A stretch of 52,158 bases of DNA from Paracoccaceae bacterium (lineage in GTDB: Bacteria; Pseudomonadota; Alphaproteobacteria; Rhodobacterales; Rhodobacteraceae): positions 1 through 52,158 of the forward strand of contig JAGRDO010000070.1 of NCBI GenBank assembly GCA_020447005.1, written 5' to 3'. The notes beneath the pieces are model-generated. The model saw only the letters and a list, made by a program, of their open reading frames with translations. It was not told where the DNA came from and searched no databases. This document shows positions 14,134 through 30,018 of this stretch, one piece after another (within the stretch, counting starts at the first letter, position 1; every line of letters begins with the position of its first letter). The translations under genes were made by a program, and so were the position numbers.

Positions 14134-15543
14134 ATGCTAAGAAACGCGATCATGCTGGTTTCGGGCAATGCCTTCGGCTCTGCCCTTTTGCTGCTGCGCA
14201 ACCTGATCGTCGCGCGCCTTGTCAGCCCCGAGGATTACGGCATCGCATCGACATTCGCCGTGGCGATGTCGATCGTCGAGATGCTGTCCTATTTCGGATT
14301 GAACCAGATGATCGTCGTCGACAAGGACGGCGATGATCCCCACGTTCAGCGCGCGATGCAGGGATTTCAGGTTATGCGCGGCGCGATTTCCAGCTTCATG
14401 CTGTTCGTGATCGCTTATCCCTATGCGCGGTTTCTTGGGGTCGAACACATCGCTTGGGCCTATCAGATCATCGCGTTCATCCCCTTGGTCAACGGGTTGA
14501 AGCATTTCGACATGGACCGGCTGAAACGGCATCTGAAATTCGGCCCTTCGGTCATCACCAGCGCGGTGCCACCCCTTGTCGCGGTCTTGACCCTGTGGCC
14601 CATTGCGCTGATCTACAACGATTACCGGATCATGCTCGTCTCGCTGTTCGTTCAGTCGGGTGCGACCGTGGCCCTGTCGCATCTGACCGCAGAGCGGCCC
14701 TATCGGATCGCTTTCGATTTCAGCCTGATGAAGCGCGCAACCGTATTTGGCTGGCCGCTTCTATTGAACGGAATGCTGCTTTTCGGTGTGTTCAATGGCG
14801 AAAGGCTGATCGTCGGCAACCGTTTGGGAATGGCCGATCTGGCCGTTTTTTCGATGGCGATCACATTGACCCTGACCCCGACGCTGGTTCTGGCCAATGC
14901 CTGCCAGTCGCTGTTCTTGCCGCAACTCAGCGCCACTCGTGACAGGGTAGAGGCGTTCCGCTGGCTTGGCGTGACCACCGTCGAAGCCGGGATGGCCATC
15001 GGGCTTGCCTTGCTTCTGGGGACGGTTCTGATCGGCGGACCTTTGGCGCATCTGCTGCTTGGGGCGAAATACAGCGGGATCCTGGGCCTTTTGGTGCCGA
15101 TGGCGGTGTTGCAGGCTGTTCGTGTTGCCAAGACCGGGGCATCGACCGTTGCGCTGGCGCGCGAACGCACCGGAAATGCCATGGCGTCTAACCTCTTTCG
15201 GGTGCTGTCGCTGCCGTTATCGTGGTACGCGGTTACCCAGACGGGGAATGTTCTTACGGTTATCGCCATCGGTTCCCTGGCCGAGGTATTGGGATTTCTG
15301 CTGTCGCTCAGACTGGCTGCGAAACGGGCGGGATTGGTGCTGCGTCCGTTGATCTTGCCATCGCTTTTGTCAGCCTTTGCCTGCGTCGCCGCGGTGATCG
15401 ATTCCCACAGCTATCCGGCGCAAACCTCCTGGATGTCGATTTTCCAGATCTCTCATCTGGGGGTCGCGCTGGTCTGTCTGGCCGCGCTGGCGTCCATGTC
15501 TGGCTTGCGCGGTTATATTCTGCGCCGGATCCGCCGGAGTTGA
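14134..15543 (+). CDS. Oligosaccharide flippase / Wzx-like polysaccharide exporter
   Basis: This is a 469-residue inner-membrane protein with about 12-14 hydrophobic segments spread along its length. It begins MLRNAIMLVSGNAFGSALLL, typical of the MOP-superfamily flippases that move lipid-linked saccharide units across the membrane. The RLVSPEDYGIAS motif near residues 27-38 is characteristic of this family. An AGGGAG ribosome-binding site precedes ATG 14134. Its place between the GT14-type enzyme and the acyltransferase and GT4 genes suggests it exports their product. The substrate cannot be read from the sequence. Confidence 0.88.
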   Translation: MLRNAIMLVSGNAFGSALLLLRNLIVARLVSPEDYGIASTFAVAMSIVEMLSYFGLNQMIVVDKDGDDPHVQRAMQGFQVMRGAISSFMLFVIAYPYARFLGVEHIAWAYQIIAFIPLVNGLKHFDMDRLKRHLKFGPSVITSAVPPLVAVLTLWPIALIYNDYRIMLVSLFVQSGATVALSHLTAERPYRIAFDFSLMKRATVFGWPLLLNGMLLFGVFNGERLIVGNRLGMADLAVFSMAITLTLTPTLVLANACQSLFLPQLSATRDRVEAFRWLGVTTVEAGMAIGLALLLGTVLIGGPLAHLLLGAKYSGILGLLVPMAVLQAVRVAKTGASTVALARERTGNAMASNLFRVLSLPLSWYAVTQTGNVLTVIAIGSLAEVLGFLLSLRLAAKRAGLVLRPLILPSLLSAFACVAAVIDSHSYPAQTSWMSIFQISHLGVALVCLAALASMSGLRGYILRRIRRS

Positions 15544-17183: not shown

Positions 17184-18392
17184 ATGCGGCAAACCGATAC
17201 CAGGCGCGTTTTGATGGTGGTCGAGAACCTGCCTGTTCCACTGGACCGGAGGGTATGGCTCGAAGCGACCACGCTGCGGGCGGAAGGCTATGAGGTCAGC
17301 ATCATCTGCCCGACCGGTCGAGGATGGGACAAGCTCCGGGAAACCATCGACGGGATCCACATCTATCGCTACCCCGAACCGGTCGAAGCCCATTCCGGCG
17401 CCATCGCCTATGCGCGCGAATATCTCTGGTCACTGATGCACTGGTTCCGGCTGGCGCGCACGGTTCGGCGCGAACAGGGATTTGACGTGATCCATGGCTG
17501 CAATCCGCCCGATCTGGTCTTTCTGCTGGCCCTTTGGCACAGGCCACGCGGGGTGCGCTACCTCTTCGATCATCATGACGTCTGCCCCGAGCTTTTCGAA
17601 GCGAAGTTCGATCGTCAGGGGCTTCTCTACAAAGTCATGCGCATCTGGGAACGGATGACATTCGCCACCGCTTCGGTCTCGATCGCGACAAACGAGAGCT
17701 TTCGCGAAATCGCGATCCGGCGCGGCAGGATGGCACCCGAGGATGTATTTGTCGCGCGTTCGGCCCCGAAGGTGGAAAAGTTCGAAATCCGCCCGGCCGA
17801 TCCCGAAATGCGCAAAGGGGCGGGGACCGTCCTTGGCTATGTCGGCGTCATCGGTCAGCAAGAAGGAATGGATCTTCTTGTCGAAGCCGCCCGGCACCTG
17901 ATCCGGGACCTTGGCCGCAAGGATGTGCATTTCATCATCGTGGGTTTCGGGCCGGAACTTCCTGCGGTTCAGGCCGATGTCACCGCCAAAGGGTTGGATG
18001 AGCACTTCACGTTCACCGGGCCGCTTTACGGCGAAGACCTCTTGCGCGCGCTGAATTCCTGCGACATCGGCGTCAGCCCTGACCCCAAGAACGCGATGAA
18101 CGACATCTCGACCATGAACAAGGTCATGGAATACATGACCTTGGAAATGCCGGTGGTTCAATTCGACCTGAAAGAGGGGCGCGCTTCGGCCGGTGAGGCG
18201 TCCCTTTATGCCCGGGCCAATGACCCGGTGGATTTCGCCGCAAAGATCGCTGAACTGATGGACGCGCCCGACAGGGCGGCGGAAATGGGACGGATCGGGC
18301 GCAAGCGGGTATTGGAGCGGCTGAGCTGGGCGCATTCAATTCCCAATCTGCTTGCCGCCTATGACCGGATCTTCGACCGGATGGGAAGGTAG
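17184..18392 (+). CDS. GT4-family glycosyltransferase
   Basis: This is a 402-residue cytoplasmic glycosyltransferase of the GT-B fold. The N-terminal acceptor domain begins RRVLMVVENLPVPLDRRVWL. The C-terminal donor domain has LGYVGVIGQQEGMDLLVEAA (about residues 213-232), FIIVGFGPE, and the GT4 motif region with EYMTLEMPVVQFDL (about 315-328), where the E-x7-E acidic motif is expected. It resembles WbuB-type sugar transferases of surface polysaccharide loci. It follows the phytase-like gene by 60 bp and converges with the rhomboid gene. Confidence 0.9.
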   Translation: MRQTDTRRVLMVVENLPVPLDRRVWLEATTLRAEGYEVSIICPTGRGWDKLRETIDGIHIYRYPEPVEAHSGAIAYAREYLWSLMHWFRLARTVRREQGFDVIHGCNPPDLVFLLALWHRPRGVRYLFDHHDVCPELFEAKFDRQGLLYKVMRIWERMTFATASVSIATNESFREIAIRRGRMAPEDVFVARSAPKVEKFEIRPADPEMRKGAGTVLGYVGVIGQQEGMDLLVEAARHLIRDLGRKDVHFIIVGFGPELPAVQADVTAKGLDEHFTFTGPLYGEDLLRALNSCDIGVSPDPKNAMNDISTMNKVMEYMTLEMPVVQFDLKEGRASAGEASLYARANDPVDFAAKIAELMDAPDRAAEMGRIGRKRVLERLSWAHSIPNLLAAYDRIFDRMGR

Positions 18393-18404: not shown

Positions 18405-18983
18405 CTACCGCCGAAGCGCGGCCCCGAGCAGAAGCCCGGCGGCGCAGCCGCCAAGATGCACCTGCCACGCAAGCCCGCCAAGCGCATCGGCCAGCAGCAC
18501 CACACAAAGAACGATCAGGATGTTCGGCGTGGACCAGCGCCCTTCGCCAGCCGCCATGGTGGCGCCCGCCAGCGCGAAGATCGCGCCAGAAGCGCCGACC
18601 GTCGCCGTGGCGGCCGGGGCCAGCATCGTGAAGACCAGAGCGCCGGCAATCTGCCCGAGACCGTAGACAACGGCCGTCCGGATCAATCCATGCCGGCGCA
18701 AAAGGCCCGGCATGAACGCGACAAGCCCGGCGCCATTTACCGCCAGATGTGCCGGACCTTCATGTATCAGACCGTAAGTCAGGAACATCACCCATGCCTG
18801 ACCGGAGAAAAGCGGCGTCCAATCCGCCAGCAGACCGGGCCAGAATGCGCCCCATTCATAAGCTGTCAATCGCAGGTCAGCCTTGCCCCAGATGCCAAGA
18901 TCGGCGCCGCTCAGCACCAGTTCCGGCAGCGCCAGAAAAAGCAGGAAGAGGGCCGTGACGATGGCAGCGCCGCGCCGTGTCAT
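18405..18983 (-). CDS. Rhomboid-family intramembrane serine protease
   Basis: This is a 192-residue, six-helix-type rhomboid. The catalytic dyad is Ser132 in VGASGAIFAL and His176 in WQVHLGG. The H-x3-N element of helix 2 is present in HLAVNG (His79, Asn83). ATG 18983 (MTRRGAAIVT) is the first good start. It lies only 14 nt behind the exosortase gene on the same strand and is almost certainly in that transcript. It could simply be a housekeeping rhomboid, or it could process proteins handled by the exosortase. Rhombosortases, which are rhomboids that process GlyGly-CTERM proteins, are of similar size. Confidence 0.88.
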   Translation of the reverse strand: MTRRGAAIVTALFLLFLALPELVLSGADLGIWGKADLRLTAYEWGAFWPGLLADWTPLFSGQAWVMFLTYGLIHEGPAHLAVNGAGLVAFMPGLLRRHGLIRTAVVYGLGQIAGALVFTMLAPAATATVGASGAIFALAGATMAAGEGRWSTPNILIVLCVVLLADALGGLAWQVHLGGCAAGLLLGAALRR

Positions 18984-18997
18984 CTTATGGGCGGCGA

Positions 18998-20605
18998 TCA
19001 GAATGGTACGAAACGCGGCATGGGAAGAAGGCTCTGGCGGATGAAATCCAGCAGCCTCGTCTCGGCAATCTCGACACTTTCGTCCGGCCCGATGGGTGTC
19101 ACGTACCGGATAAGGGCACCATCCGACCGGCCAAGCGCAAGGCTGTCCCAAAGGACGGCGAGCTTGGCGCGGACATCGTTCGGAACCCGCCGTCCCCTGC
19201 CCTCGAACCAGTAATAGACCAGTTGCTTGGACAGACCTTTCTGGATCACGGCCCGGTTTGCCTTGAACGCGCCATAGCCCACATCGGTCAAGTCCAACGA
19301 CACTTCCTGAAGGCTGAAGACTTCCCAGCCACCGGCCGGCAAACAGACTTCCGGGGAATGGATCCCCTGCCCTTCCGTCTGCTTGTCATACCAGGCGACA
19401 AACAGGCTGATGGGCTGCTCGACAGCTGAATTCTGAAAGAATGCGTTGATGTAATCGTCAGCCGCCAGAACTTTTTCCACATCGGGTTCCAGCGGAAAGG
19501 TCACGCTTTGCCAGTCGCCAATTGTCCGCGGGTAAAGCGCCAGGGGCTCGCGGTCCGGGGCAGCGGCCTGCGGCGCGGGCAATGTAAGCCAGGCCAAAGA
19601 TACGGCCGCGGTCAGTGCCATGGCCGAAGCCAAACCTGCTGTGGCGGGCAAGGTAAGGACGCGCGCCAGTATCGCGCCGAAACCCTCAAAATCGAGATCG
19701 ATCGCCTCTGATAGCGGCATCGGCTTCGGCGTTGTTCTTTGCAGAACGACTGCCATCGAAAACAGGATTGCGATACAGATCAGGAATATCACCCAGCCTT
19801 CGAAGAAGTGAAGAAAACCGTCGGCCTGTTCGATCCCGTATCGATCCACCAGAATGCCGATCACGCCAATTCGGACGGAGTTCATAAGCACCGTCAAGGG
19901 CGCTGCCGAGATCAACAAGACCAGTTTATGCCAGATCGGTCCACGGTAGAGAATTGAGAACAGATAAGAAAAGCTGAGAATTGGGAAGAGGTAGCGCAGG
20001 CCCGAGCAAGCCTCGGCGACCTGAAGCTTGTAAACCCCGAGGTCAATGACATTGCCTTCGAGATACACCGCAACGCCGGCCAACTGCACGAACCAGACGC
20101 CAAGCGCCGAGGACACCCATTGCAGAAAGATGGTCAGCTTCCAGTAAAGGATTTGCGGCAGGGGCAGCATGAAAACCAGGTGAATGACGGGCAGCATATG
20201 CAGATGCCCGCGCTGCCAGCCGAAGATCGTGAGAACCACCCCTGCCACCCAGAGGATGAACGCATAGGTCACGATGTCTGGCACACGCATGAGATTGCCC
20301 AGCACCGCAACCAGCAGCGCCAGCATCAGCACGGCAAGGCCCGGCCACCGGGTTCTTTCGGCCCCGATCGCTTCCGGTTTCGCCCGGCGAAGCTCTCGCA
20401 GGAAGAGGTAAAGCGAAATGAGCGGGATCAAGGGGCCGTGGCTGTACTCTGCAGTCGACCAGGCCTTCAGCAACGATTGAAAGCCGATCCAGAAAATCGG
20501 CAATGATGCGACCAGCAGGGCCACAAAGAGCGCGAAACCCAGCCCGGGCAATGACGCTGAAGCGGGAACTGGGCGGAGTGAACTATGTGTCGATTGATCG
20601 CTCAT
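18998..20605 (-). CDS. xrtD: Exosortase of the XrtD (VPLPA-CTERM) type, fused to an EpsI-like domain
   Basis: Exosortases are inner-membrane transpeptidases that cleave proteins at a C-terminal sorting tag and are thought to pass them to a surface acceptor. This protein has 535 residues. The N-terminal part (about 1-290) has eight or so membrane helices and the catalytic set Cys200 in [13 protein letters not shown], Arg245 in NSVRIGVIG and His266 in LHFFEGW. The C-terminal part (about 320-535) is a soluble EpsI/DUF3485-like domain with [13 protein letters not shown]. This fusion, in a roseobacter-like context, fits the XrtD subtype, whose targets end in a VPLPA-containing tail. It is flanked by EPS export genes upstream and a rhomboid gene downstream. 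Confidence 0.9.
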
Positions 20606-20683
20606 TCCATCACAACGGTTTCAGGCACGAAACAGGTACCGGTATTCATTGGACCCCAACGACGCCCCCGATCCCGGGTCAGT

Positions 20684-22075
20684 TCATGGGCGGAACGAAA
20701 ACTTGCGGTCCAGCGTCAGGAAAATGGCATTGGACTGCGCGTCGTTCGCGACCGAGCTGTCGGTTCTGCGGCGCAGTTCGACGCCGCCGGTCATATCCCA
20801 ATCCTGCGTCAGGGAACGAGAATAGGTAGCCCTGAGCGTCGCCCGGTCGACCGTCGCGATCGCCGTGCCGCCGGCACCTTCCGAACGGCCCCAGTTAACC
20901 GTAACGCCAATCCTTGAGAGACTGTCGATATTGCGCCCGTAGGTCACATTTATCCGGGTGTCGAGCACATCCTGATTGACCGAGTTGGTGCTGACCGCAC
21001 GATTCAGCGATACCGTCACATCACTGTCCTTGAGCGCCAGCGAATAGGACAATGCCGCGATCGAATTGCTCTTTCCGCCGGGCGTGCGTGTAAGGCCGAG
21101 GCTTCCCGAAAGCTTGCCCGAAGGCAGCGTCAGATCGCGCCCGAACCGGAACGAGCTTCGCGTACCGTTCTGGTTCAAAGTCGTGTCGACGGTCGCGAAC
21201 ATCGATCCATTCGGCAATGATTTGGTCAAAGTCACGGCACCGGTCGTTCCGCTTCGCCCGGTCGAGCCCAGAAGGGTGTCGGTCTGCACGTCGGTCACAC
21301 CGATCCGGGCGTCAAGCACCAGCGTCTGGTCGATGTCCTGAACCACGCCAACTGAATAATCCGTCGTGACGCGATGGGTCTGGATGCCCGGCTCGTCGGC
21401 GTTGTAATCCTTGAGACCGTAATTGAGTTTCAGTTGCGTGACCGGCGATACTTTCATCGAGACGGTCGCATCTGCCGTGCTGGTACGATTGTCGAAAAGC
21501 TGTGGATTGGTCACGTTCGCATAGGCTTTGTCGTCATGCTTCAAAGCAAGCGAAAAGCCCAGCGGGCTGTTCAACCCGGTCTGGAGGGTAAGCCCGGCGC
21601 CGCGCTGGGTCAGCGTTCCGCCATCGTCGGTCAGCAAGCCATATTGCTGCTCTTCCTGCTCGACCTGAAACGGGTCGAGGAATTCACGGTCCACATGACG
21701 ATAGCGCAGGAACATCGACATGCGACTGTTTGCGGCGCTGCGCGAATAGTCCAGCTTGATGGTCGGATCTTCGAAACCCGACGTCGACCGCCCGGGAATA
21801 TCGGCATATCGCAGCACGGTCGATCCAGTGAGCGCAAAGGATTCCGTCGCCGTGACCGAGCTGAGACCAAAGGTGAATTTGTTGTCAAAGATCGTCGAGC
21901 TTCCGGCGCTGTTGACCTGAAGCTTGAAGTTGTCATCGCTTTTCAGCGATGAACTGACCCCGAGGTCCAACTGCCACCCACCCGGATTGCCAAGCCCTTG
22001 CGCAAGCGCTGCAATCGGAAGTGTGGCAGTTAACGCCGCGGCCAGCGCGATCTTGTTGTTTCTGCTCGTGCCCAC
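20684..22075 (-). CDS. Outer-membrane beta-barrel protein of the exosortase/EPS locus
   Basis: This is a 463-residue exported protein, probably an outer-membrane barrel. A signal peptide (TSRNNKIALAAALTATLPIA, ending ALAQG) is followed by many short amphipathic strands with alternating residues (for example FALTGSTVLRYADI and ATLRATYSRSLTQDWDMTGG). It ends in Phe-Arg-Pro after LDRKFSF, close to the aromatic C-terminal signature of outer-membrane proteins. GTG 22075 is chosen; a TTG at 22129 would overlap the upstream OPX gene. EpsL-type barrels commonly sit beside PEP-CTERM exosortases, and this is likely the functional equivalent. It may be the secretin-like exit or a structural partner of the exporter. 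Confidence 0.75.
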   Translation of the reverse strand: MGTSRNNKIALAAALTATLPIAALAQGLGNPGGWQLDLGVSSSLKSDDNFKLQVNSAGSSTIFDNKFTFGLSSVTATESFALTGSTVLRYADIPGRSTSGFEDPTIKLDYSRSAANSRMSMFLRYRHVDREFLDPFQVEQEEQQYGLLTDDGGTLTQRGAGLTLQTGLNSPLGFSLALKHDDKAYANVTNPQLFDNRTSTADATVSMKVSPVTQLKLNYGLKDYNADEPGIQTHRVTTDYSVGVVQDIDQTLVLDARIGVTDVQTDTLLGSTGRSGTTGAVTLTKSLPNGSMFATVDTTLNQNGTRSSFRFGRDLTLPSGKLSGSLGLTRTPGGKSNSIAALSYSLALKDSDVTVSLNRAVSTNSVNQDVLDTRINVTYGRNIDSLSRIGVTVNWGRSEGAGGTAIATVDRATLRATYSRSLTQDWDMTGGVELRRRTDSSVANDAQSNAIFLTLDRKFSFRP

Positions 22076-22097
22076 ACCATTTGCCTTGTTTTTGGAG

Positions 22098-22733
22098 CTA
22101 TTCGAAAAGTTTTCGCTCGGGCACGACAATCACGTCGCCCGCGCGCAATACGATGACCGGCGCTTTCGCGCCACCCTGAACAGCCTTGTAGTTGTAGTGA
22201 TAAACCGTTTCCGTTCCGGTCTTGGAATCCGCCCGGCGAAGCTGGATGCGTTTGGTCGCCGCAAATCGTGTCAGGCCACCGGTGCTTGCCAGAAACTGAA
22301 GAAGCGTTGTGCCCGAATCCACGTCAATCTTGCCGGGGTTGTTCACTTCACCCAGCGCATAGACCGAAATGGTTCCGTATTTCGCCACGTTGGCGGCAGC
22401 GGCTTGGGCCGCGGCATTGTTGACGGCGCTGGTTGTCGCATTCAACTGGCCGACCGTCAGAAAGACCGTAGGCGGCGCCGCGAAGTTGGGTGCGAGGGCC
22501 CCGGCGATCTTGCTGCGCAGCGCTTCCAGGCTTTGCCCCGACGCCTTGACCGATCCTACCAGCGGCAGGCTGACATTGCCGTCAGGCAGCACCAGCAGAC
22601 TGCGGTTAAGGCTTGGATCCTCAAGGACTTCAAGCTGCAGCACATCCCCGCTCTGGATACGATAGGCGCTTTGCGCCATGGCCGCGGGAACAAGACAGAT
22701 GGCCAGCAACAGGCCAATCAGGGTTCTGAACAT
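22098..22733 (-). CDS. Polysaccharide export protein (OPX/Wza family) with SLBB domain
   Basis: This 211-residue periplasmic/outer-membrane export protein belongs to the Poly_export family. A signal peptide (MFRTLIGLLLAICLVPAAMA) is followed by YRIQSGDVLQLEVLEDPSLN, the start of the PES domain. An SLBB-like domain follows (ISVYALGEVNNPGKIDVDSG). No lipobox Cys is present, unlike typical Wza lipoproteins. An Ala/Asn-rich insert (about residues 100-117) separates the two domains. ATG 22733 is chosen; a GTG three codons upstream (22742) is also possible. It likely forms the outer part of the EPS channel with the chain-length protein encoded on the divergent arm. Confidence 0.87.
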   Translation of the reverse strand: MFRTLIGLLLAICLVPAAMAQSAYRIQSGDVLQLEVLEDPSLNRSLLVLPDGNVSLPLVGSVKASGQSLEALRSKIAGALAPNFAAPPTVFLTVGQLNATTSAVNNAAAQAAAANVAKYGTISVYALGEVNNPGKIDVDSGTTLLQFLASTGGLTRFAATKRIQLRRADSKTGTETVYHYNYKAVQGGAKAPVIVLRAGDVIVVPERKLFE

Positions 22734-22872
22734 TTTCGACACCCAAATAATATTCGATTCGACGCAAGACTAAGCGCAATTGCCGAGAATACAAATCCTT
22801 AACACAGACCAAGGTACGATCTGGCCGCGCATTGGGCCGGATCAGTGCCACGGCGGCAACACAATTTTGCAA

Positions 22873-25317
22873 TCAGTTACCGATTGTAACCCCTTCTGAG
22901 GACAATGCACGAATGTTTTCGCGCATCGACGCTGCAAACTTTGGTTCATCGCCGGTTGCTGCATCGACAAGATCCAACGCCAGTTCAAATTGACGCAGAG
23001 CATCGCTCTTGCGATCAAGCGCCAGATAGACCTCGGCAAGATGATATTGGACTGACGGGTCTTTCGGCAGGCCGGCGGCTGCGGGTTCCAGTTCGGCCAA
23101 TGCATCCTCGTTATTGCCGCGAAGATGCGCGATCCAGCCATAGGTATCCTGGTACGGGGCGAAACCGCTGCCGCGCAAACGCCGGGCAATGATTTCGGCA
23201 CGATCAAGACTGTCTTTGTCGGCACGGAAATTCGACAGAAGGCTCGCAAGGTTGTTGGCAACGACCGGGTTGCCGCTGTTTTCCTTGTACAGATCCTCAT
23301 AAATGGCGATTGCGCCGTCGATGTCCCCGGTTGCTTCCAGCAGGCCTGCCTTGGCCCATTTCAGCTCGCCGGACTGAGGATTGGCGGCCAGGGCCTTTTC
23401 GATAAGCTGGGCCGTTTCACCCCGCCGCGCTTCGTCCGAACCGACAACGCTTACCAAAGACAGCCAGACCGCCAGACGACTAGGGTCTTCCTTGACCAGA
23501 TCCCTGAACGTCTCTTCGGCCTTGCCCGCCTGCCCGGCAAGCACGCGAACGGATGCATCCACAAACCTGATTTCCGGGTTCTCGGCATCCTCTTTCATAA
23601 GATTGTCGGCATAGGCAAGTGCTCGGTCGATCTGACCGTTGTCGATATGGGTCCGGAGAATGGCGATCTTCGTGCCAATACTGTTATCGCCACTATCGAC
23701 CAGCCCCTGAAGGTAACCGACGGCGTCGTCTGTCTGTTTTTGCCCGGACAAGACGGCAGCCCGGATCCCGGCGGCAGCGCGCTTCAACTCTTCGTTGTCC
23801 GAAGTCTCCATCTCTTGCGCGACAGCGGTTGCGCGCGGCCAGTCTTTTAAGCGCAGATAGAGCTCACCCAGCGCCCGAAGCAGAATTGGCTCGCCCGGAG
23901 AAAGCCGCAGGGCGTCGATCAGGATCCCTTCAGCCGGCAACAATTTTCCGTCGGATACAAGGAACTGGGCATATCGCAGCGATTCTGCAGGTGCGCGCCC
24001 GGAGGCTTCAACCGCACGCGACAACATCTCGCGCGTCAGATCGCGATTTCCGTCGCGATCGTAACCCTGCGCCATCAATGTCATGATCTGGGCATCGCGC
24101 GGATCGTTGTCGAGAGCACGCCGCAACACGGCAATCGCGTCACCGACCTCGTCATCCTCGATCAGCCACGCCGCCTTCAGCTTGAGCGCTTCGGTTTCGC
24201 CGCTGTCCTCTGCCAGCACCTCATCCACATAGGCCTGCGCGCCGACAGGATTGCCTGTCATCGACAGCATTCGCGCCAGAGCGACCTTTGTTCGACGCGT
24301 TTCCTCTGACGAGGGTGAGGATTCGAGGATCGCCTTCATGTCGGCGATGGCCTTGTCCTTCTGGCCAGTATCAAAAAGGAAGCCAGCGCGCGCGGAACGT
24401 AATGCGGTGGTCCCCTGGCCGGACGCAATCGCGCGGTCCAGTTCGGCGAGTACGGCCTCTGCACCGCGTTGCTGGGACAAAAAGCGCACGAGGTTGAAAA
24501 TGTCCGCCTCGGTTCCACCCTCGATCCGGCCGCGCAGAAAAACCTCGGCCTTGTCGATCTGTTTTTTGGACACGTACCAACGGACCAGCGAATCTGCAAT
24601 TTCGGGCGCATCGGGGAAGCGCTTGATCATCTCGTTGAGGTTGGTCTCGACGCCTTCATCGTCGCCCTGCGCCGCAAGTATCGACAGCTTGTGCGCATAA
24701 AGCGCCCGGTTTTGCGGCGCGATCTGCAAAGCCAAATCAAGTTCGGCCAGTGCCGCCGGATAATCCTGCGCGCGAATACGGTCATCAATGATGACTTGGT
24801 GCAGGATCAGGTTCTTCGGGAACAGTTCGCGCAGTTTGCGCACCGTGTCGATGGCCGCCAACTGCTTGGTCACATCGTTGTTTTCAGTCGCCTGACCATA
24901 TTCGGCGGCAGCGACCAGGGCCTGATACTCCGCGTTGTCGGGTTTCAGATCGCGCGCGATGGTCGCATAGCGCAATCCTGTATCGAACTCCGACCGCTCG
25001 ATCGCGATCTCGGCCAGCGCCTTCAGCGCATCCTCGTCGTCCGGGTATTGCTCGACAAGCCGCAGATACTGGCTGAACGCCGCAGGGGCATCACCGCGTT
25101 CGCGTTCTATGCTGGCATAAAGGCGCCGGGCTTCCCGGTGCTTTCCGTTGAGCTTGAAGACATTTCGGAATTCGACCAGAGCGCGGTCGACATCGCCCTT
25201 GGCGATATAGGAAAGCCCCGATTGATAGTATTTCTCGGCGCGCTCTTCCGAATTGTCACATGCCGCCGGAACCAGCAGACAAAGCACCAGAAGTAGGGCC
25301 GACAATGGCTTCCGCAT
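22873..25317 (-). CDS. TPR-repeat lipoprotein of the exosortase/EPS system (PrsT-like)
   Basis: This large protein of 814 residues has a lipoprotein signal (MRKPLSALLLVLCLLVPAAC, Cys20) and then about 20 tetratricopeptide-type helical repeats to the end. Examples are YYQSGLSYIAKGDVDRALVE near residues 30-50 and the last repeat VQYHLAEVYLALDRKSDALR. Proteins of this size and layout accompany PEP-CTERM exosortase/EPS loci (PrsT family). In such loci they are thought to scaffold the export complex, as AlgK or PelB do. It is the second gene of the minus-strand series after the sugar transferase, with 117 bp between them. Confidence 0.85.
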   Translation of the reverse strand: MRKPLSALLLVLCLLVPAACDNSEERAEKYYQSGLSYIAKGDVDRALVEFRNVFKLNGKHREARRLYASIERERGDAPAAFSQYLRLVEQYPDDEDALKALAEIAIERSEFDTGLRYATIARDLKPDNAEYQALVAAAEYGQATENNDVTKQLAAIDTVRKLRELFPKNLILHQVIIDDRIRAQDYPAALAELDLALQIAPQNRALYAHKLSILAAQGDDEGVETNLNEMIKRFPDAPEIADSLVRWYVSKKQIDKAEVFLRGRIEGGTEADIFNLVRFLSQQRGAEAVLAELDRAIASGQGTTALRSARAGFLFDTGQKDKAIADMKAILESSPSSEETRRTKVALARMLSMTGNPVGAQAYVDEVLAEDSGETEALKLKAAWLIEDDEVGDAIAVLRRALDNDPRDAQIMTLMAQGYDRDGNRDLTREMLSRAVEASGRAPAESLRYAQFLVSDGKLLPAEGILIDALRLSPGEPILLRALGELYLRLKDWPRATAVAQEMETSDNEELKRAAAGIRAAVLSGQKQTDDAVGYLQGLVDSGDNSIGTKIAILRTHIDNGQIDRALAYADNLMKEDAENPEIRFVDASVRVLAGQAGKAEETFRDLVKEDPSRLAVWLSLVSVVGSDEARRGETAQLIEKALAANPQSGELKWAKAGLLEATGDIDGAIAIYEDLYKENSGNPVVANNLASLLSNFRADKDSLDRAEIIARRLRGSGFAPYQDTYGWIAHLRGNNEDALAELEPAAAGLPKDPSVQYHLAEVYLALDRKSDALRQFELALDLVDAATGDEPKFAASMRENIRALSSEGVTIGN

Positions 25318-25434
25318 GGTTATCCCTCAGTTCACCGAACCAACCGATACAGAAACACCGGTCCGGCGCTGTCACGCCCACCACCCAAGGCAAACTTGTC
25401 ATGAATCACGTCAAACGACAACTGTAGTGTCCGA

Positions 25435-26124
25435 TCAGTACCCGGTTCCGCGCAATACGACGCTTACTGTTGCCAACAGGATCCGAAGATCTGATCGGAA
25501 AGAAAGTTGCCGGTCATAACTTCTGTCGTACTCTGCCCTTTTCGAGAACTCGCACTCGTTGCGGTCAGAGATCTGCCAGGAACCGGTGATCCCCGGACGC
25601 AGGGAATAATAGGCCATGCCGGTGTACAGCACGCGCTGAGACGGCATCATGGGGCGTGGCCCGACAAGCGACATGTCCCCGATCAGGACGTTCCACAGTT
25701 GCGGCAGTTCATCGAGCGACGATTTGCGCAGGAACCTGCCCATCTTGGTGATACGCGGATCGGATTTCAGTTTTTGCGTGCTGTTCCATTCCAGCCGCGC
25801 CTGCGCGTTCGTGCTCAGGTACTTTTCAAGCATGCGGTCAGCGTCGGGCACCATGGTCCGGAGCTTCAGCATGTAGAAAACCTTCCCGCCCTTGCCGACC
25901 CGGGCGCTGCGATAGAAGGGTGACGATCGATCACGTGCTACGATCAACGCCAAGATGGCGATCACGGGAAGAACCACGATTCCGGACACAAGCACTGCGG
26001 CGATGTCGAACGCCCGCTTGAAGATATTGCGATACAGCCCCGCTTTGCGCTCGACGCGGACAAGGCCGAACGGCGCAGTCGACATGCTAAGATCGTTGGC
26101 GGTTTCGCTAGTTTGAAACGTCAT
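25435..26124 (-). CDS. Initiating sugar transferase (polyprenyl-phosphate hexose-1-phosphate transferase)
   Basis: This enzyme begins EPS repeat-unit assembly by moving a sugar-1-phosphate from UDP-sugar to undecaprenyl phosphate. It has 229 residues, the short ExoY/PssA-like form with one reentrant membrane helix (residues 33-63, KRAFDIAAVLVSGIVVLPVI). Signature segments are FYMLKLRTMVPDAD, FLRKSSLDELPQLWNVL and MSLVGPRPMMPSQ, with RPGITGSWQISDRNE near the C-terminus. The ATG at 26124 is used; Met14 (MSTAPFG) is an alternative start. It faces the plus-strand ATPase operon across a 484-bp regulatory interval. Confidence 0.92.
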   Translation of the reverse strand: MTFQTSETANDLSMSTAPFGLVRVERKAGLYRNIFKRAFDIAAVLVSGIVVLPVIAILALIVARDRSSPFYRSARVGKGGKVFYMLKLRTMVPDADRMLEKYLSTNAQARLEWNSTQKLKSDPRITKMGRFLRKSSLDELPQLWNVLIGDMSLVGPRPMMPSQRVLYTGMAYYSLRPGITGSWQISDRNECEFSKRAEYDRSYDRQLSFRSDLRILLATVSVVLRGTGY

Positions 26125-26608
26125 ATGAAAAACTCAAAATCAGCATCGTCACTCACACCCTTAAGCGCCCTATGGAAAGGGGCACGCACACACCCGAATG
26201 TTCCCGCTGCTACCCCGGCGGGTTCGGTCGTGCATAGCACTGTTTGGACCTCGGAAGAAATCAAGATTCTGACAGATAACGAAAATTCGGCGGGTTCCGG
26301 CGAACTGGCCGCGTGATTCCGGTACATTCGAGGTTGACGGCATGCCCATCGAGGCGTTGACTGTTCACCGATTGGAAACGATCCAGTGAGTTCGCTGTAT
26401 TTTTAGTCTCGAACACATACTCGCTACGCGAAAAGCAGCCCGAATCGTTAAACCGGCATTAATTGTCTGCGAAAACCGCCGGGTCGTCATGATGTTGCCG
26501 AACTTTGCTGGGCAAAGAGATTTGAAATGCTTATGTGATTGCCCGTCACCGGATGGTATTCTGATGCCTGTTGAGCGTAGGCCAAGGTTGAGCGAACTGG
26601 ATTAGTGA
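26125..26608. other. 484-bp divergent regulatory interval of the exosortase/EPS locus
   Basis: I see no convincing gene here. Open frames of 67-68 codons on both strands at 26113-26327 have no ribosome-binding site and no recognisable product. The main feature is a perfect CtrA-type box at 26448-26462, preceded by a GANTC site at 26442-26446. The interval must carry promoters for both arms of the locus, but no clear -35/-10 pair stands out. Confidence 0.5.
26448..26462 (+). promoter_or_regulatory. CtrA-type binding site TTAA-N7-TTAA
   Basis: The sequence TTAAACCGGCATTAA matches the CtrA full-site consensus exactly (TTAA, 7-bp spacer, TTAA). It lies 146 bp upstream of the ATPase start and about 320 bp upstream of the divergent sugar-transferase gene. 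A GAATC (CcrM methylation) site lies two bases before it. I found no other full site in the intergenic regions. Binding is inferred. Confidence 0.55.
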
Positions 26609-27496
26609 ATGAACAAGGTCGTCGAGACCCAATCGGCGGAAAGCAGCGTCGGCTTCTACATGGATTTCTTCGGGTTTCAGGAGCGCCCGTTCACGCTCGT
26701 TCCCGACCCTGATTTCCTGTTCTGGTCTCCGCAGCATCGCCGCGCTTATTCCGTTCTCGAATTCGGGATCCTGAGCCGTGCGCCGATCACGTTGGTCACG
26801 GGTGGCGTCGGCTGCGGCAAGACGACACTTCTGCGCGAGCTTTTGCGCCAGTTTGGCAATCGCGTCACCGTCGGGCTGATCTCGAATGCCCAGGGCGGGC
26901 GTGGCGAGTTGATCCAGTGGGTCCTCAATTCGCTTGATGTGCCTTTTGATACCGGTTCGGGTTATGTCCAGCTGTTCCAGAAACTGCAGGATTATCTGAT
27001 CGAGGAATATGCAGCGGGGCGCCGCGTCGTCCTGATTTTCGACGAAGCGCAGAACCTTTCTGCCGAAAGTCTGGAAGAGCTGCGGATGCTGACCAACATC
27101 AACTCTGGCAAGGACGAAATCCTGCAATTGGTATTGGTCGGCCAGCCTGAACTGCGCGAGATGGTGCTGGAGCCGTCGTTGCGCCAGCTTGCCCAGCGGA
27201 TTGCTGCCAGCTTCCACCTTCTGCCGATGGATGAAAAATCGGTGCTTGAACTGATCCAGTTCCGGTTGCAGGCGGCGGGCGGCACCGGGACCGAAATCAC
27301 GCCTGCCGCTGTAAAGACCATTCACCGGGTAACCCATGGCGTACCGCGGCTGGTCAATCAACTTTGCGACATGGCATTGCTCTATGCCTGGAGCATGGAT
27401 AACCACCACGTTGACGAACATGTCGTTCAATCTGTGCTGGACGACGGAGTGTTCTTCGCGGCGCAGATTGCGGCGGAGGAAGCGAAACAGAAATGA
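26609..27496 (+). CDS. ExeA/PEP-CTERM-type AAA ATPase of the EPS locus
   Basis: This is a 295-residue P-loop ATPase. Walker A is GGVGCGKTT (65-73) and Walker B is RVVLIFDEAQN (139-149). Its N-terminal FFGFQERPFTLVPDPDFLFW matches the ExeA/XrtA-associated ATPase family found at exosortase loci. No transmembrane segment is visible. The C-terminal helical part (LIQFRLQAAGGTGTEITPAA and VPRLVNQLCDMALLYAW) is the AAA lid. The gene overlaps the chain-length gene by 4 bp (ATGA), so their products are made together. It probably energises or regulates assembly of the exporter. No clear ribosome-binding site precedes ATG 26609. Confidence 0.88.
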   Translation: MNKVVETQSAESSVGFYMDFFGFQERPFTLVPDPDFLFWSPQHRRAYSVLEFGILSRAPITLVTGGVGCGKTTLLRELLRQFGNRVTVGLISNAQGGRGELIQWVLNSLDVPFDTGSGYVQLFQKLQDYLIEEYAAGRRVVLIFDEAQNLSAESLEELRMLTNINSGKDEILQLVLVGQPELREMVLEPSLRQLAQRIAASFHLLPMDEKSVLELIQFRLQAAGGTGTEITPAAVKTIHRVTHGVPRLVNQLCDMALLYAWSMDNHHVDEHVVQSVLDDGVFFAAQIAAEEAKQK

Positions 27497-29040
27497 ACCT
27501 TGACCTGTCGTTCTACTTTGCCGTTTTCCTCAGACGGATACATTACTTCATAATCATCACCTGCCTGATCACGGCGGCGGCGGTCGCGGCGGCGTTCCTG
27601 TTGCCGGCTGTCTATTCGGCAAACTCGTTGCTTCTGGTCGAGTCATCTTCCATTCCGGGGCCTCTGGCCGCGCCGACGGTTCAGCCCGCAGCGCTGGAAA
27701 AGCTTCAGACGATCGAAAACAGGCTGATGACGCGGACCAACCTTCTGGACATTGCCCAGAAGCTGAAGGTGTTCAAAGACATCGAGAAGATGACGCCGGA
27801 TGACGTCGTGACCGCAATGCGCGACCATACGAAAATCAAGAAAAGCGCCGGCAAGGGTCAGGCGACGATCATGACGATCCAGTTCGACGGCGAAGCCGGG
27901 CCGAAAGTGGCCGCTGTCGTCAATGAATATGTGACACTGATCTTGAAGGAAGATGTCGAATTGCGCACGAAAAGTGCCAGTGACACGCTTGACTTCTTCG
28001 AACAGGAAGTAAAGCGGCTTTCGGGCGAGCTGGACAAGATGAGCGCGCGGATCCTCGACTTCCAGAACAGCAATTCGGATGCGCTTCCCAACACCCTGAC
28101 CTATCGCCTGAACCAGCAACAACTGTTGCAGAACAGGTTGCAGACTTCGGAAGCCAATATTGCCCAGCTTACCGATCAGAAGGCGCGTATGATCGCGATC
28201 TTCAATTCCACCGGGCAAGTCAACGCTCCGACGACGAACCAGACACCGGAAGCCAAGCAGCTTGATCAGTTGCGGATTCAGCTTAACACGATGCTTGCGG
28301 TGTTCACCGAAGATAACCCCAAGGTGAAACTGCTGCGCCAGCAGATCGCGCAGTTGGAAGAGGTGGTAAAAGCCCAGTTGCCACCGGCGCCGGCCGGGAC
28401 GACAACCTCGACCAACCCCGCGATGTCAATGCTTGACGTGCAGCTTGCCGATATCGACACCAGACTGGCGCAGGAAAACAAGACCCGCGATCAGGTGATG
28501 AAGGAACTGGCGGACCTGAAGGACACGATCGACAGAACGCCGGCCAACCAGGTCGCGCTCGACGCGCTCAACCGCGACTATTCCAACATCCAGCAGCAGT
28601 ACAACACGGCTGTAAACCGTCAGGCACAGGCCGCGGCCGGCGAGCGCATCGAAGTTCTGTCGAAAGGCGAACGCATCACGGTTATCGACGCGGCAACCGT
28701 GCCCGACCGCCCTGCAAGCCCCAACCGGATTGCTATTGTCGCCGGTGGGTTTGTTGCCGGATCGGGCCTTGGGATTCTGGTCATCGCCCTGCTCGAATTT
28801 CTAAACCGCTCGGTCCGGCGGCCGAAAGACCTGATCAACGCGTTTGGAATCACCCCGATCGTGACGATCCCCTATATGCGCACGCCTTCGGAAACGACGA
28901 TGCGGCGATCGGTATTTGCCGTCATGATGATGCTCGCCGTCGTCGGCATCCCGGCGCTCATTTACAGTGTGCATGTCTTCTATCAACCGCTTGATATCAT
29001 CATGGCCAAACTGGCGGCAAAACTGGGAATACGGCTCTGA
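27493..29040 (+). CDS. Polysaccharide co-polymerase / chain-length determinant (Wzz/GumC type)
   Basis: This is a 515-residue inner-membrane protein that controls polymer length and links the cytoplasmic kinase to the OPX channel. The Wzz-like N-terminus has a first membrane helix (about residues 16-38). It is followed by a long periplasmic region with coiled-coil stretches (about 160-230 and 255-380). A second membrane helix (IAIVAGGFVAGSGLGILVIA, about 412-431) comes after the conserved Pro-rich stretch VPDRPASPNRIAI. A third hydrophobic segment (about 475-497) lies near the C-terminus, an extra relative to simple Wzz. It overlaps the ATPase gene by 4 bp and is followed 40 bp later by the tyrosine kinase. 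Confidence 0.9.
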   Translation: MNLDLSFYFAVFLRRIHYFIIITCLITAAAVAAAFLLPAVYSANSLLLVESSSIPGPLAAPTVQPAALEKLQTIENRLMTRTNLLDIAQKLKVFKDIEKMTPDDVVTAMRDHTKIKKSAGKGQATIMTIQFDGEAGPKVAAVVNEYVTLILKEDVELRTKSASDTLDFFEQEVKRLSGELDKMSARILDFQNSNSDALPNTLTYRLNQQQLLQNRLQTSEANIAQLTDQKARMIAIFNSTGQVNAPTTNQTPEAKQLDQLRIQLNTMLAVFTEDNPKVKLLRQQIAQLEEVVKAQLPPAPAGTTTSTNPAMSMLDVQLADIDTRLAQENKTRDQVMKELADLKDTIDRTPANQVALDALNRDYSNIQQQYNTAVNRQAQAAAGERIEVLSKGERITVIDAATVPDRPASPNRIAIVAGGFVAGSGLGILVIALLEFLNRSVRRPKDLINAFGITPIVTIPYMRTPSETTMRRSVFAVMMMLAVVGIPALIYSVHVFYQPLDIIMAKLAAKLGIRL

Positions 29041-29080
29041 CCGCCTGCGGCGGCCAGGTGCGCTACAAGGACACGGATGA

Positions 29081-29926
29081 ATGGAAAAGCTAGAGGCAGC
29101 CCTTATCAAGGCACGGGAAATGCGCAAGGCGGCGCTTTCGTCGTCAGATACGCTTCATGAGCGTCCCGGTGCACGCGGCCTGACCGAGGCGCGCAAGCCG
29201 GGTCGCGACACGGCCGACTGGACGGACCTGCCGGAAGTCGAAATCACCTCTCAACGTGCGCTGAACTATCGGCTGACGACGCTTCTCGGCGGCAAGGACG
29301 CAACGCCTTATGACATGCTCAGATCCCGGGCAATCAGGATCATGCGCGAAAAAGGCTGGAGCCGGCTGGCGGTAACTTCACCGGATGCAGGATGTGGCAA
29401 AAGCACGGTTTCGCTGAACCTTGCCCTGAGCCTTGCGCGTCAAAAGGATCTGAAGATCCTTCTCATTGACCTTGATCTTCGCCGGCCGTCACTTCACCGG
29501 TTGCTGGATTACGTGCCGACCCGTTCGGTGTTCGATGTCTTGCGTGGCGAAGCAAAACTTGAAGAAGCCAGCGCCCGGATCGGTACGAATCTGATCGTCG
29601 CGATGAATGCCGAACCCTGCAAGCAACCGGCCGAGCTGCTGCAAAGTGCGCAAGCGCGTGACGCGCTGGCGGAAATCGAGCAGCGATGGCAGCCGGATAT
29701 CATGATCTTCGACATGTCACCTATTCTGGCAAGTGACGACAATGTCGGCTTTCTGCCGAATGTCGATTGCGCGCTTCTGGTCGCCGCGGCCGAAAGCACC
29801 TCCATGCCCAACATCGACATCTGCGAAAAAGAAATCGCCCAGCTGACGAATGTACTCGGGATCGTGCTGAACAAATGCCGCTATGCCGACGATTCCGTCG
29901 GCTACAGCTATGGCACTTACGGATAA
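29081..29926 (+). CDS. BY-kinase (CpsD/CapB/XrtA-associated tyrosine autokinase)
   Basis: This is a 281-residue bacterial tyrosine kinase. Walker A is SPDAGCGKSTVS (100-111), Walker A' is ILLIDLDLRRPSL (126-138) and Walker B is IMIFDMSP (207-214). The C-terminus carries a tyrosine cluster, Tyr268, Tyr275, Tyr277 and Tyr280 (YADDSVGYSYGTYG), the expected autophosphorylation tail. The protein is separate from its membrane activator, as in Gram-positive CapA/CapB pairs; the activator is likely the preceding chain-length protein. Phosphorylation cycles of such kinases control EPS polymerisation. No tyrosine phosphatase gene is found in the locus. Confidence 0.92.
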   Translation: MEKLEAALIKAREMRKAALSSSDTLHERPGARGLTEARKPGRDTADWTDLPEVEITSQRALNYRLTTLLGGKDATPYDMLRSRAIRIMREKGWSRLAVTSPDAGCGKSTVSLNLALSLARQKDLKILLIDLDLRRPSLHRLLDYVPTRSVFDVLRGEAKLEEASARIGTNLIVAMNAEPCKQPAELLQSAQARDALAEIEQRWQPDIMIFDMSPILASDDNVGFLPNVDCALLVAAAESTSMPNIDICEKEIAQLTNVLGIVLNKCRYADDSVGYSYGTYG

Positions 29927-30018
29927 CTTTATCGTCACCTCCCGAAACGGCTCGCATGGTGGGCTTGACGCCACTTGCGTAACCGCTACCACTTTGCCAC
30001 CAAAGTTAGGAGACTGGC

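Follow-up and report, generated by a model that had tools for sequence, protein, structure and literature searches.

We analysed a 52,158-nt stretch of DNA from a Paracoccaceae bacterium (GenBank assembly GCA_020447005.1, contig JAGRDO010000070.1, positions 1–52,158; this whole stretch is termed the window), which carries a nine-gene XrtD exosortase and exopolysaccharide (EPS) locus at positions 18405–29926, with all open reading frames (ORFs) open at or near the positions given below. The minus-strand arm reads sugar transferase, TPR lipoprotein, OPX protein, outer-membrane barrel, xrtD and a rhomboid protease gene, R; the plus-strand arm reads ATPase, chain-length protein and BY-kinase. The locus resembles the known XrtD/VPLPA-CTERM system (TIGR04152/TIGR03370) in its exosortase over cut-off, the EpsI fusion, tagged proteins encoded in the genome and the EPS genes, and differs from it in the rhomboid partner. 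The genes, catalytic residues, substrates, linkage and distribution of xrtD-containing and xrtD-less loci are observed directly. As a whole they are on balance probably best explained by R being a further intramembrane enzyme that acts on VPLPA-CTERM tags, either as a partner of XrtD or in its place, in the manner of a rhombosortase.

XrtD and the adjoining rhomboid

The exosortase (18998–20605, minus strand) is fused to an EpsI/DUF3485 domain and scores 663 bits against TIGR04152 (cut-off 400) and 150 bits against the XrtA exosortase model (cut-off 208); it is not XrtA. Cys200, Arg245 and His266, which an earlier note on this DNA had described as a visible catalytic set, are identical in 81/81 aligned sequences and are assigned as catalytic because of the conserved exosortase motifs Cys-x-Gly, Asn-x-x-Arg and His-x-x-x-Gly given in Haft et al. 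2006 (PMC1569441). Judged by its sequence, the enzyme is clearly XrtD, and by itself the locus is an ordinary XrtD locus of an already known type.

R (18405–18983, minus strand; PF01694), a member of an XrtD-linked rhomboid subfamily, probably begins at the ATG at 18983, 14 nt past the xrtD stop. The catalytic GxSG serine is identical in 56/56 aligned sequences and the distal histidine in 55/56, with one gap. The window protein retains its catalytic residues, is unusually divergent (end branch 1.53, top identity 47% in the tree set) and matches no NCBIfam model at 1e-3.

We located R relative to xrtD in 80 loci, the best 80 of 280, drawn from named records. R lies immediately downstream in 37 and elsewhere within ~10 kb in 18, was not seen in 23, some of them cut by contig ends, and could not be placed in two that end too early; it is present within ~10 kb in 55 of the 78 loci with room. 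A tree of 88 rhomboids, for which every second of the 55 xrtD-linked proteins was taken, separates R as a single clade from 19 housekeeping rhomboids (SH-aLRT 100). R proteins of xrtD-containing and xrtD-less loci are interspersed in it, and about half of the inner branches are weak. The R proteins of four loci from genomes without VPLPA-CTERM proteins (L220, L221, L222 and L224) fall outside the main R clade. Within the genus, R occurs in 17 of 22 genomes; it is absent from three genomes without XrtD and tags, from G021, whose XrtD scores lower at 576 bits, and from G009, where xrtD runs to the contig end.

R and VPLPA-CTERM proteins across the family

We surveyed 199 Rhodobacteraceae genomes from 198 genera, requested at ≥90% completeness. 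The R search model A1 comprised 22 rows, the window rhomboid and 21 from xrtD loci; it favours xrtD-linked rhomboids by construction, and R proteins of XrtD-less genomes are not among its rows. The threshold of 140 bits was set after seeing the gap between an upper group (≥142 bits) and a lower group (~127 bits and less), with G137 (123.5 bits) and G129 (two partial matches of 127 and 91 bits) counted as lacking R. VPLPA-CTERM proteins were called present at E 1e-4. At most 13 first-look candidates per genome were scored for R and at most 40 for VPLPA, so that matches can be missed.

XrtD over cut-off was found in 44/199 genomes, any exosortase (PF09721) in 63/199 and VPLPA-CTERM proteins in 65/199. 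R is present in 34/44 XrtD genomes versus 21/155 XrtD-less genomes, and in 43/65 genomes with VPLPA-CTERM proteins (VPLPA-positive) versus 12/134 without (VPLPA-negative), an enrichment short of near-perfect co-distribution. The association with tags extends to genomes that lack the exosortase: (i) among XrtD-less genomes, R occurs in 10/23 VPLPA-positive versus 11/132 VPLPA-negative cases (Fisher p 9e-5); (ii) among XrtD-less genomes with at least five VPLPA proteins, in 9/14 versus 12/141 of the rest (Fisher p 4e-6); and (iii) among genomes without any PF09721 match, in 9/18 VPLPA-positive versus 10/118 VPLPA-negative ones (p 7e-5).

EPS loci with R and without xrtD

We fetched 10 R loci from XrtD-less VPLPA-positive genomes, 12 from XrtD-less VPLPA-negative genomes and 18 from XrtD genomes in which R is not beside xrtD, together with 19 housekeeping rhomboid loci. 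Nine of the first ten are EPS loci of the same kind, the stretches fetched containing no xrtD. In seven of these nine R-only loci (L209, L213 to L218) R comes straight after the barrel gene; it lies elsewhere in L211 and L212, the L212 stretch stopping before any barrel. The tenth, L210 (G125), lies on a short contig that holds two tagged genes but does not extend far enough to tell the locus type. Genomes with R-only loci hold 3 to 20 tagged proteins. No PF09721 match was found even at E 10 in G117, G125, G142, G160, G180, G185, G186, G205 and G236, and the tenth XrtD-less VPLPA-positive genome with R, G173, has an exosortase E/protease.

Similar EPS loci make up 9 of the 18 from XrtD genomes (L233 to L237, L239 to L242), with L237 and L242 showing part of the EPS set and L239 also having xrtD 5 kb off; L232 has OPX, barrel and xrtD. 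Neither the 12 R loci from XrtD-less VPLPA-negative genomes nor the 19 housekeeping rhomboid loci contain a TPR, OPX or barrel gene. The 12 loci were also scanned for tripartite tails of another, unrecognised tag beside R, and none was convincing. A nonulosonic-acid cassette as anchor pathway was considered and dropped: a neuA-like gene lies near R in 3/10 XrtD-less VPLPA-positive loci, 0/49 other R or control loci and 0/80 xrtD loci. A CAAX-type protease replacing R in exosortase-only loci was sought with one query and a motif, and none was found.

We mapped both enzymes on a 71-row tree of the TPR protein, made up of 40 rows that have R (the window among them), 14 that lack it, 9 R-only rows and 8 from second loci, loci lacking a long TPR frame being left out. 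At least four changes are needed for the nine R-only rows, four of them imposed by well-supported branches; for the 14 rows whose loci have xrtD but lack R within 10 kb the number is eight, seven of them imposed in this way. The counts do not separate gains from losses. Each enzyme therefore comes and goes around a stable core.

Plasmids also carry the locus. Searched with an R query from an R-only locus at E 1e-15, 10 of 72,556 plasmid records have R, and all 10 also have XrtD and the EPS ATPase, which occur on 25 and 30 records, respectively; some of the ten nearly duplicate one another (R. denitrificans and R. litoralis are represented by two such records each). On Roseobacter denitrificans pTB2, which has the EPS core, R comes right behind the gene that occupies the barrel position; xrtD, two annotated VPLPA-CTERM proteins and a dTDP-rhamnose operon are encoded there as well. 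In strain OCh 114, both enzymes, the EPS core and the two VPLPA-CTERM proteins lie within ~23 kb of pTB2. On Haematobacter massiliensis pOT1-6, a VPLPA-CTERM gene lies ~115 nt before R. pTB2 (L357) also bears a bifunctional sulfate adenylyltransferase/APS kinase gene. Its rhamnose and sulfate genes hint at a rhamnose-containing, perhaps sulfated polymer.

VPLPA-CTERM substrates

Among 782 window ORFs no VPLPA tail was found (best tail-model E 0.23), in line with the earlier note, which had recognised no substrate in the window and placed the sorted proteins elsewhere. They are indeed encoded elsewhere: in the genome, which is 91% complete, two VPLPA-CTERM proteins exceed the TIGR03370 cut-off, one each on contigs C189 and C111, and two further matches (E 0.6 and 9) were disregarded. 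The tail model scores the two substrates at E 2.5e-15 and 9.1e-17, a weak control, as both are among the 23 tails from which it was built. The note had held that a genome without any VPLPA-CTERM protein would count against its reading; two are present. It had also proposed a comparison with genomes lacking xrtD. Within the genus the expected pattern is seen, XrtD matches and VPLPA-CTERM proteins coinciding in the same 19/22 genomes and G011, G016 and G017 having neither (contig ends truncate the XrtD match in both G007 and G009, and in G007 it is below cut-off). Across the family the pattern is less well kept, as 23/155 XrtD-less genomes have VPLPA-CTERM proteins.

Of the other VPLPA proteins included in the comparison, ten are related to the C189 substrate, with identities of 58 to 76% for nine of them and 49% for the tenth. 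A gene for such a relative is convergent with the BY-kinase gene and adjoins it in 13/13 genus regions fetched, which were chosen for a VPLPA match ~10 kb from xrtD. At this position the window has instead a 92-bp junction (29927–30018) to a gene named M16-type from sequence reading, and C189 (near 29047) carries the substrate gene with the outer neighbours seen in relatives. The broken kinase–substrate junction may reflect either a genuine rearrangement or an error of assembly. That the window contig and C189 simply swapped segments was rejected: blastn shows no match >250 bp between C189 and the regions of the M16 gene in five relatives.

Among the 80 xrtD loci, 38 contain a tagged frame, which lies ≤250 nt from the R frame in eight (L064, L077, L083, L086, L088, L090, L104 and L130) and on the same strand as R in five of these, distances being measured between stop-to-stop frames, not genes. 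The model of the substrate beside the BY-kinase in L061 (L061:92-751) shows a beta-sandwich and a C-terminal helix at low confidence (mean pLDDT 65.5). The PDB structures it resembles, all weakly (best E 1.1e-3, none <1e-3), count among them many carbohydrate-binding modules of family 32 and further galactose-binding-like domains. A carbohydrate-binding-module-like fold, as modelled, would suit an EPS-binding protein and proves nothing. A distinct tail motif in R-only genomes was sought by eye in 39 R-only, 14 exosortase-only (11 from one genome), 6 neither-enzyme and 17 genus tails, and none was seen.

Proposed roles of XrtD and R

We propose that the locus makes and exports an exopolysaccharide and couples this to the processing of secreted VPLPA-CTERM proteins. 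The helix of the tag would keep the secreted substrates tethered in the inner membrane; XrtD would cut near the VPLPA motif via Cys200 and pass the protein to an acceptor, and the processed protein could then leave with, or bind, the polysaccharide. R would be a second intramembrane protease on the same tags, acting jointly with XrtD in loci such as that of the window and alone, like rhombosortase, in xrtD-less loci. We infer all enzyme action, the acceptor and the cutting of VPLPA tags by R. Tentatively, and with less confidence than in R as a tag enzyme, the proposal may be taken further: two unrelated intramembrane enzymes would read the same tag, with R independent of the exosortase and either enzyme absent while the other carries on, and exosortase systems in general would recruit intramembrane protease partners from different families (CAAX-type fused in XrtE, rhomboid here).

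Several observations weigh against a role of R on VPLPA-CTERM tags. Eleven XrtD-less genomes carry R and no tags, and the adjacent partial matches of G129 may be one frame-broken R gene, in which case the VPLPA-negative figure becomes 12/132; conversely, 13 XrtD-less VPLPA-positive genomes lack R, as do 10/44 XrtD genomes, and the XrtD genomes G158 and G162 have no tags at E 1e-4. Eight of the 13 XrtD-less VPLPA-positive genomes that lack R (G033, G066, G073, G095, G116, G165, G166 and G195) have neither an exosortase over cut-off nor the EPS ATPase (E 1e-20), G166 holding 16 tagged proteins with neither enzyme; another processing enzyme may exist in tagged genomes with neither XrtD nor R. The Fisher tests ignore shared ancestry. 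L220, L221, L222 and L224, from VPLPA-negative genomes, pair R with sugar transferase and ATPase genes, and a tagged gene lies near R in only 1/10 XrtD-less VPLPA-positive R loci. Tails of R-only genomes look, by eye, like the others. By TIGR03902, R is not rhombosortase: eight R proteins of relatives score 19.9 to 39.5 bits versus 14.6 to 25.4 bits for five housekeeping rhomboids, with a cut-off of 84, and the model is the best NCBIfam match for 8/8 R proteins scored and also for 3/5 housekeeping rhomboids.

Some of these points would fit R serving the polysaccharide machine, where it would process the barrel, the TPR lipoprotein or the chain-length protein or check their quality, and tracking tags only via the shared EPS locus. 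The position of R right after the barrel in 7/9 R-only loci and its occurrence with sugar transferase and ATPase genes in the four VPLPA-negative genomes speak for this account. We nevertheless regard it as rather unlikely: one or more of the TPR, OPX and barrel genes accompany R in 18 fetched loci without adjacent xrtD, all of them in VPLPA-positive genomes, against 0/12 R loci in XrtD-less VPLPA-negative ones, and a tagged frame lies within 250 nt of the R frame in 8/80 xrtD loci. The tight linkage of xrtD and R would also be expected from a strict two-step pairing, in which XrtD makes the sorting cut and R only clears the leftover membrane stub and has no function without the exosortase. 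Precedent exists in exosortase E, fused to an intramembrane protease (L270, TIGR04162 and TIGR03008), and in the four EpsH–CAAX protease fusions reported in PMC1569441. Such a pairing is improbable given that R occurs in xrtD-less loci of genomes keeping 3 to 20 tagged proteins, that the TPR tree requires at least four changes for these loci, be they gains or losses, and that XrtD occurs without R in 10/44 genomes. That R is a mere passenger of an ordinary XrtD locus, moved by operon and plasmid transfer, agrees with the plasmid-borne loci and the eight changes needed where xrtD has no R within 10 kb, yet is very improbable for a protein that keeps its serine in 56/56 and its histidine in 55/56 sequences (one gap) and stays with the locus through gene-order changes and the absence of xrtD.

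Components of the locus

The nine genes and families named in the earlier note are each confirmed by family matches, the barrel by predicted structure, and the strands of the genes bear out its two divergent arms. Its view that they encode every layer of an EPS and protein-sorting machine stands in part: the EPS and sorting families are present, but a Wzy polymerase was not found among the nine genes in Pfam and NCBIfam scans, and a flippase-family (Wzx) gene (14134–15543, plus strand) lies outside the 18405–29926 interval. Its listing of the rhomboid as one layer among nine is right as to the gene and incomplete as to its distribution, which is unexpected and includes such loci without xrtD.

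In the minus-strand arm, the initiating sugar transferase (25435–26124) matches PF02397. The PrsT-like TPR lipoprotein (22873–25317) has the lipobox LVPAAC and TIGR02917 as its best model, at 223 bits below the cut-off of 312. The short OPX protein (22098–22742; 214 aa) has PF02563 (Poly_export) and SLBB domains, and its frame as listed shares 32 nt with that of the outer-membrane beta-barrel (20684–22129). The barrel protein has no Pfam or NCBIfam match at 1e-3; its AlphaFold model (mean pLDDT 88) shows 22 predicted strands by our count, and the best PDB matches found with Foldseek are mostly TonB-dependent receptor barrels. As modelled, the short OPX protein and the barrel look like the OPX/beta-barrel translocon EpsY/EpsX described in PMC9601211, where a short OPX gene likewise lies beside an outer-membrane barrel gene, despite the different strand number (22 predicted here versus 18 in EpsX).

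The plus-strand arm comprises the EPS-locus AAA ATPase (26609–27496; TIGR03015-like), the chain-length determinant (PCP; 27493–29040; TIGR03007-like), which overlaps it by 4 nt, and the BY-kinase (29081–29926; TIGR03018-like), which has a C-terminal Tyr cluster. The TPR, ATPase, chain-length and kinase proteins match XrtA-system models, all below the curated cut-offs, and are therefore relatives of those equivalogs, not members. A glycosyltransferase gene identified by profile match (17184–18392, plus strand) adjoins the locus and is also beside it in many close relatives.

Relation to known sorting systems

The XrtA/PEP-CTERM/EpsH system, as described in Haft et al. 2006 (PMC1569441), shares with the window the TPR lipoprotein, OPX, ATPase, chain-length protein, kinase and sugar transferase, but here the exosortase, like the four proteins above, falls below the XrtA-system cut-offs. 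Rhombosortase/GlyGly-CTERM (TIGR03902; PMC3237569) offers a rhomboid subfamily co-distributed with a tripartite C-terminal tag, the tag here being VPLPA rather than GlyGly. In exosortase E/protease (TIGR04162) an exosortase is likewise joined with an intramembrane protease, there a fused CAAX-type domain and here a separate rhomboid. A pairing of exosortase and rhomboid was not found in the titles or abstract openings of the relevant literature, whose full texts lay mostly outside this check and may mention it.

In the myxosortase paper PMC11980579, exosortases are described as identified through comparative genomics, and transpeptidation is suggested. Exosortase processing of the tags, and the identity of whatever the product becomes attached to, are made testable by natural loci that have tags and a rhomboid and no exosortase. 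Such loci supply a candidate for another enzyme acting on that tag, and pTB2 of Roseobacter denitrificans OCh 114 provides a case in a named strain in which both enzymes occur together. We propose that C-terminal sorting here involves two intramembrane enzymes of separate descent, that a locus may lack either one, and, by inference, that R has an enzymatic role in it.

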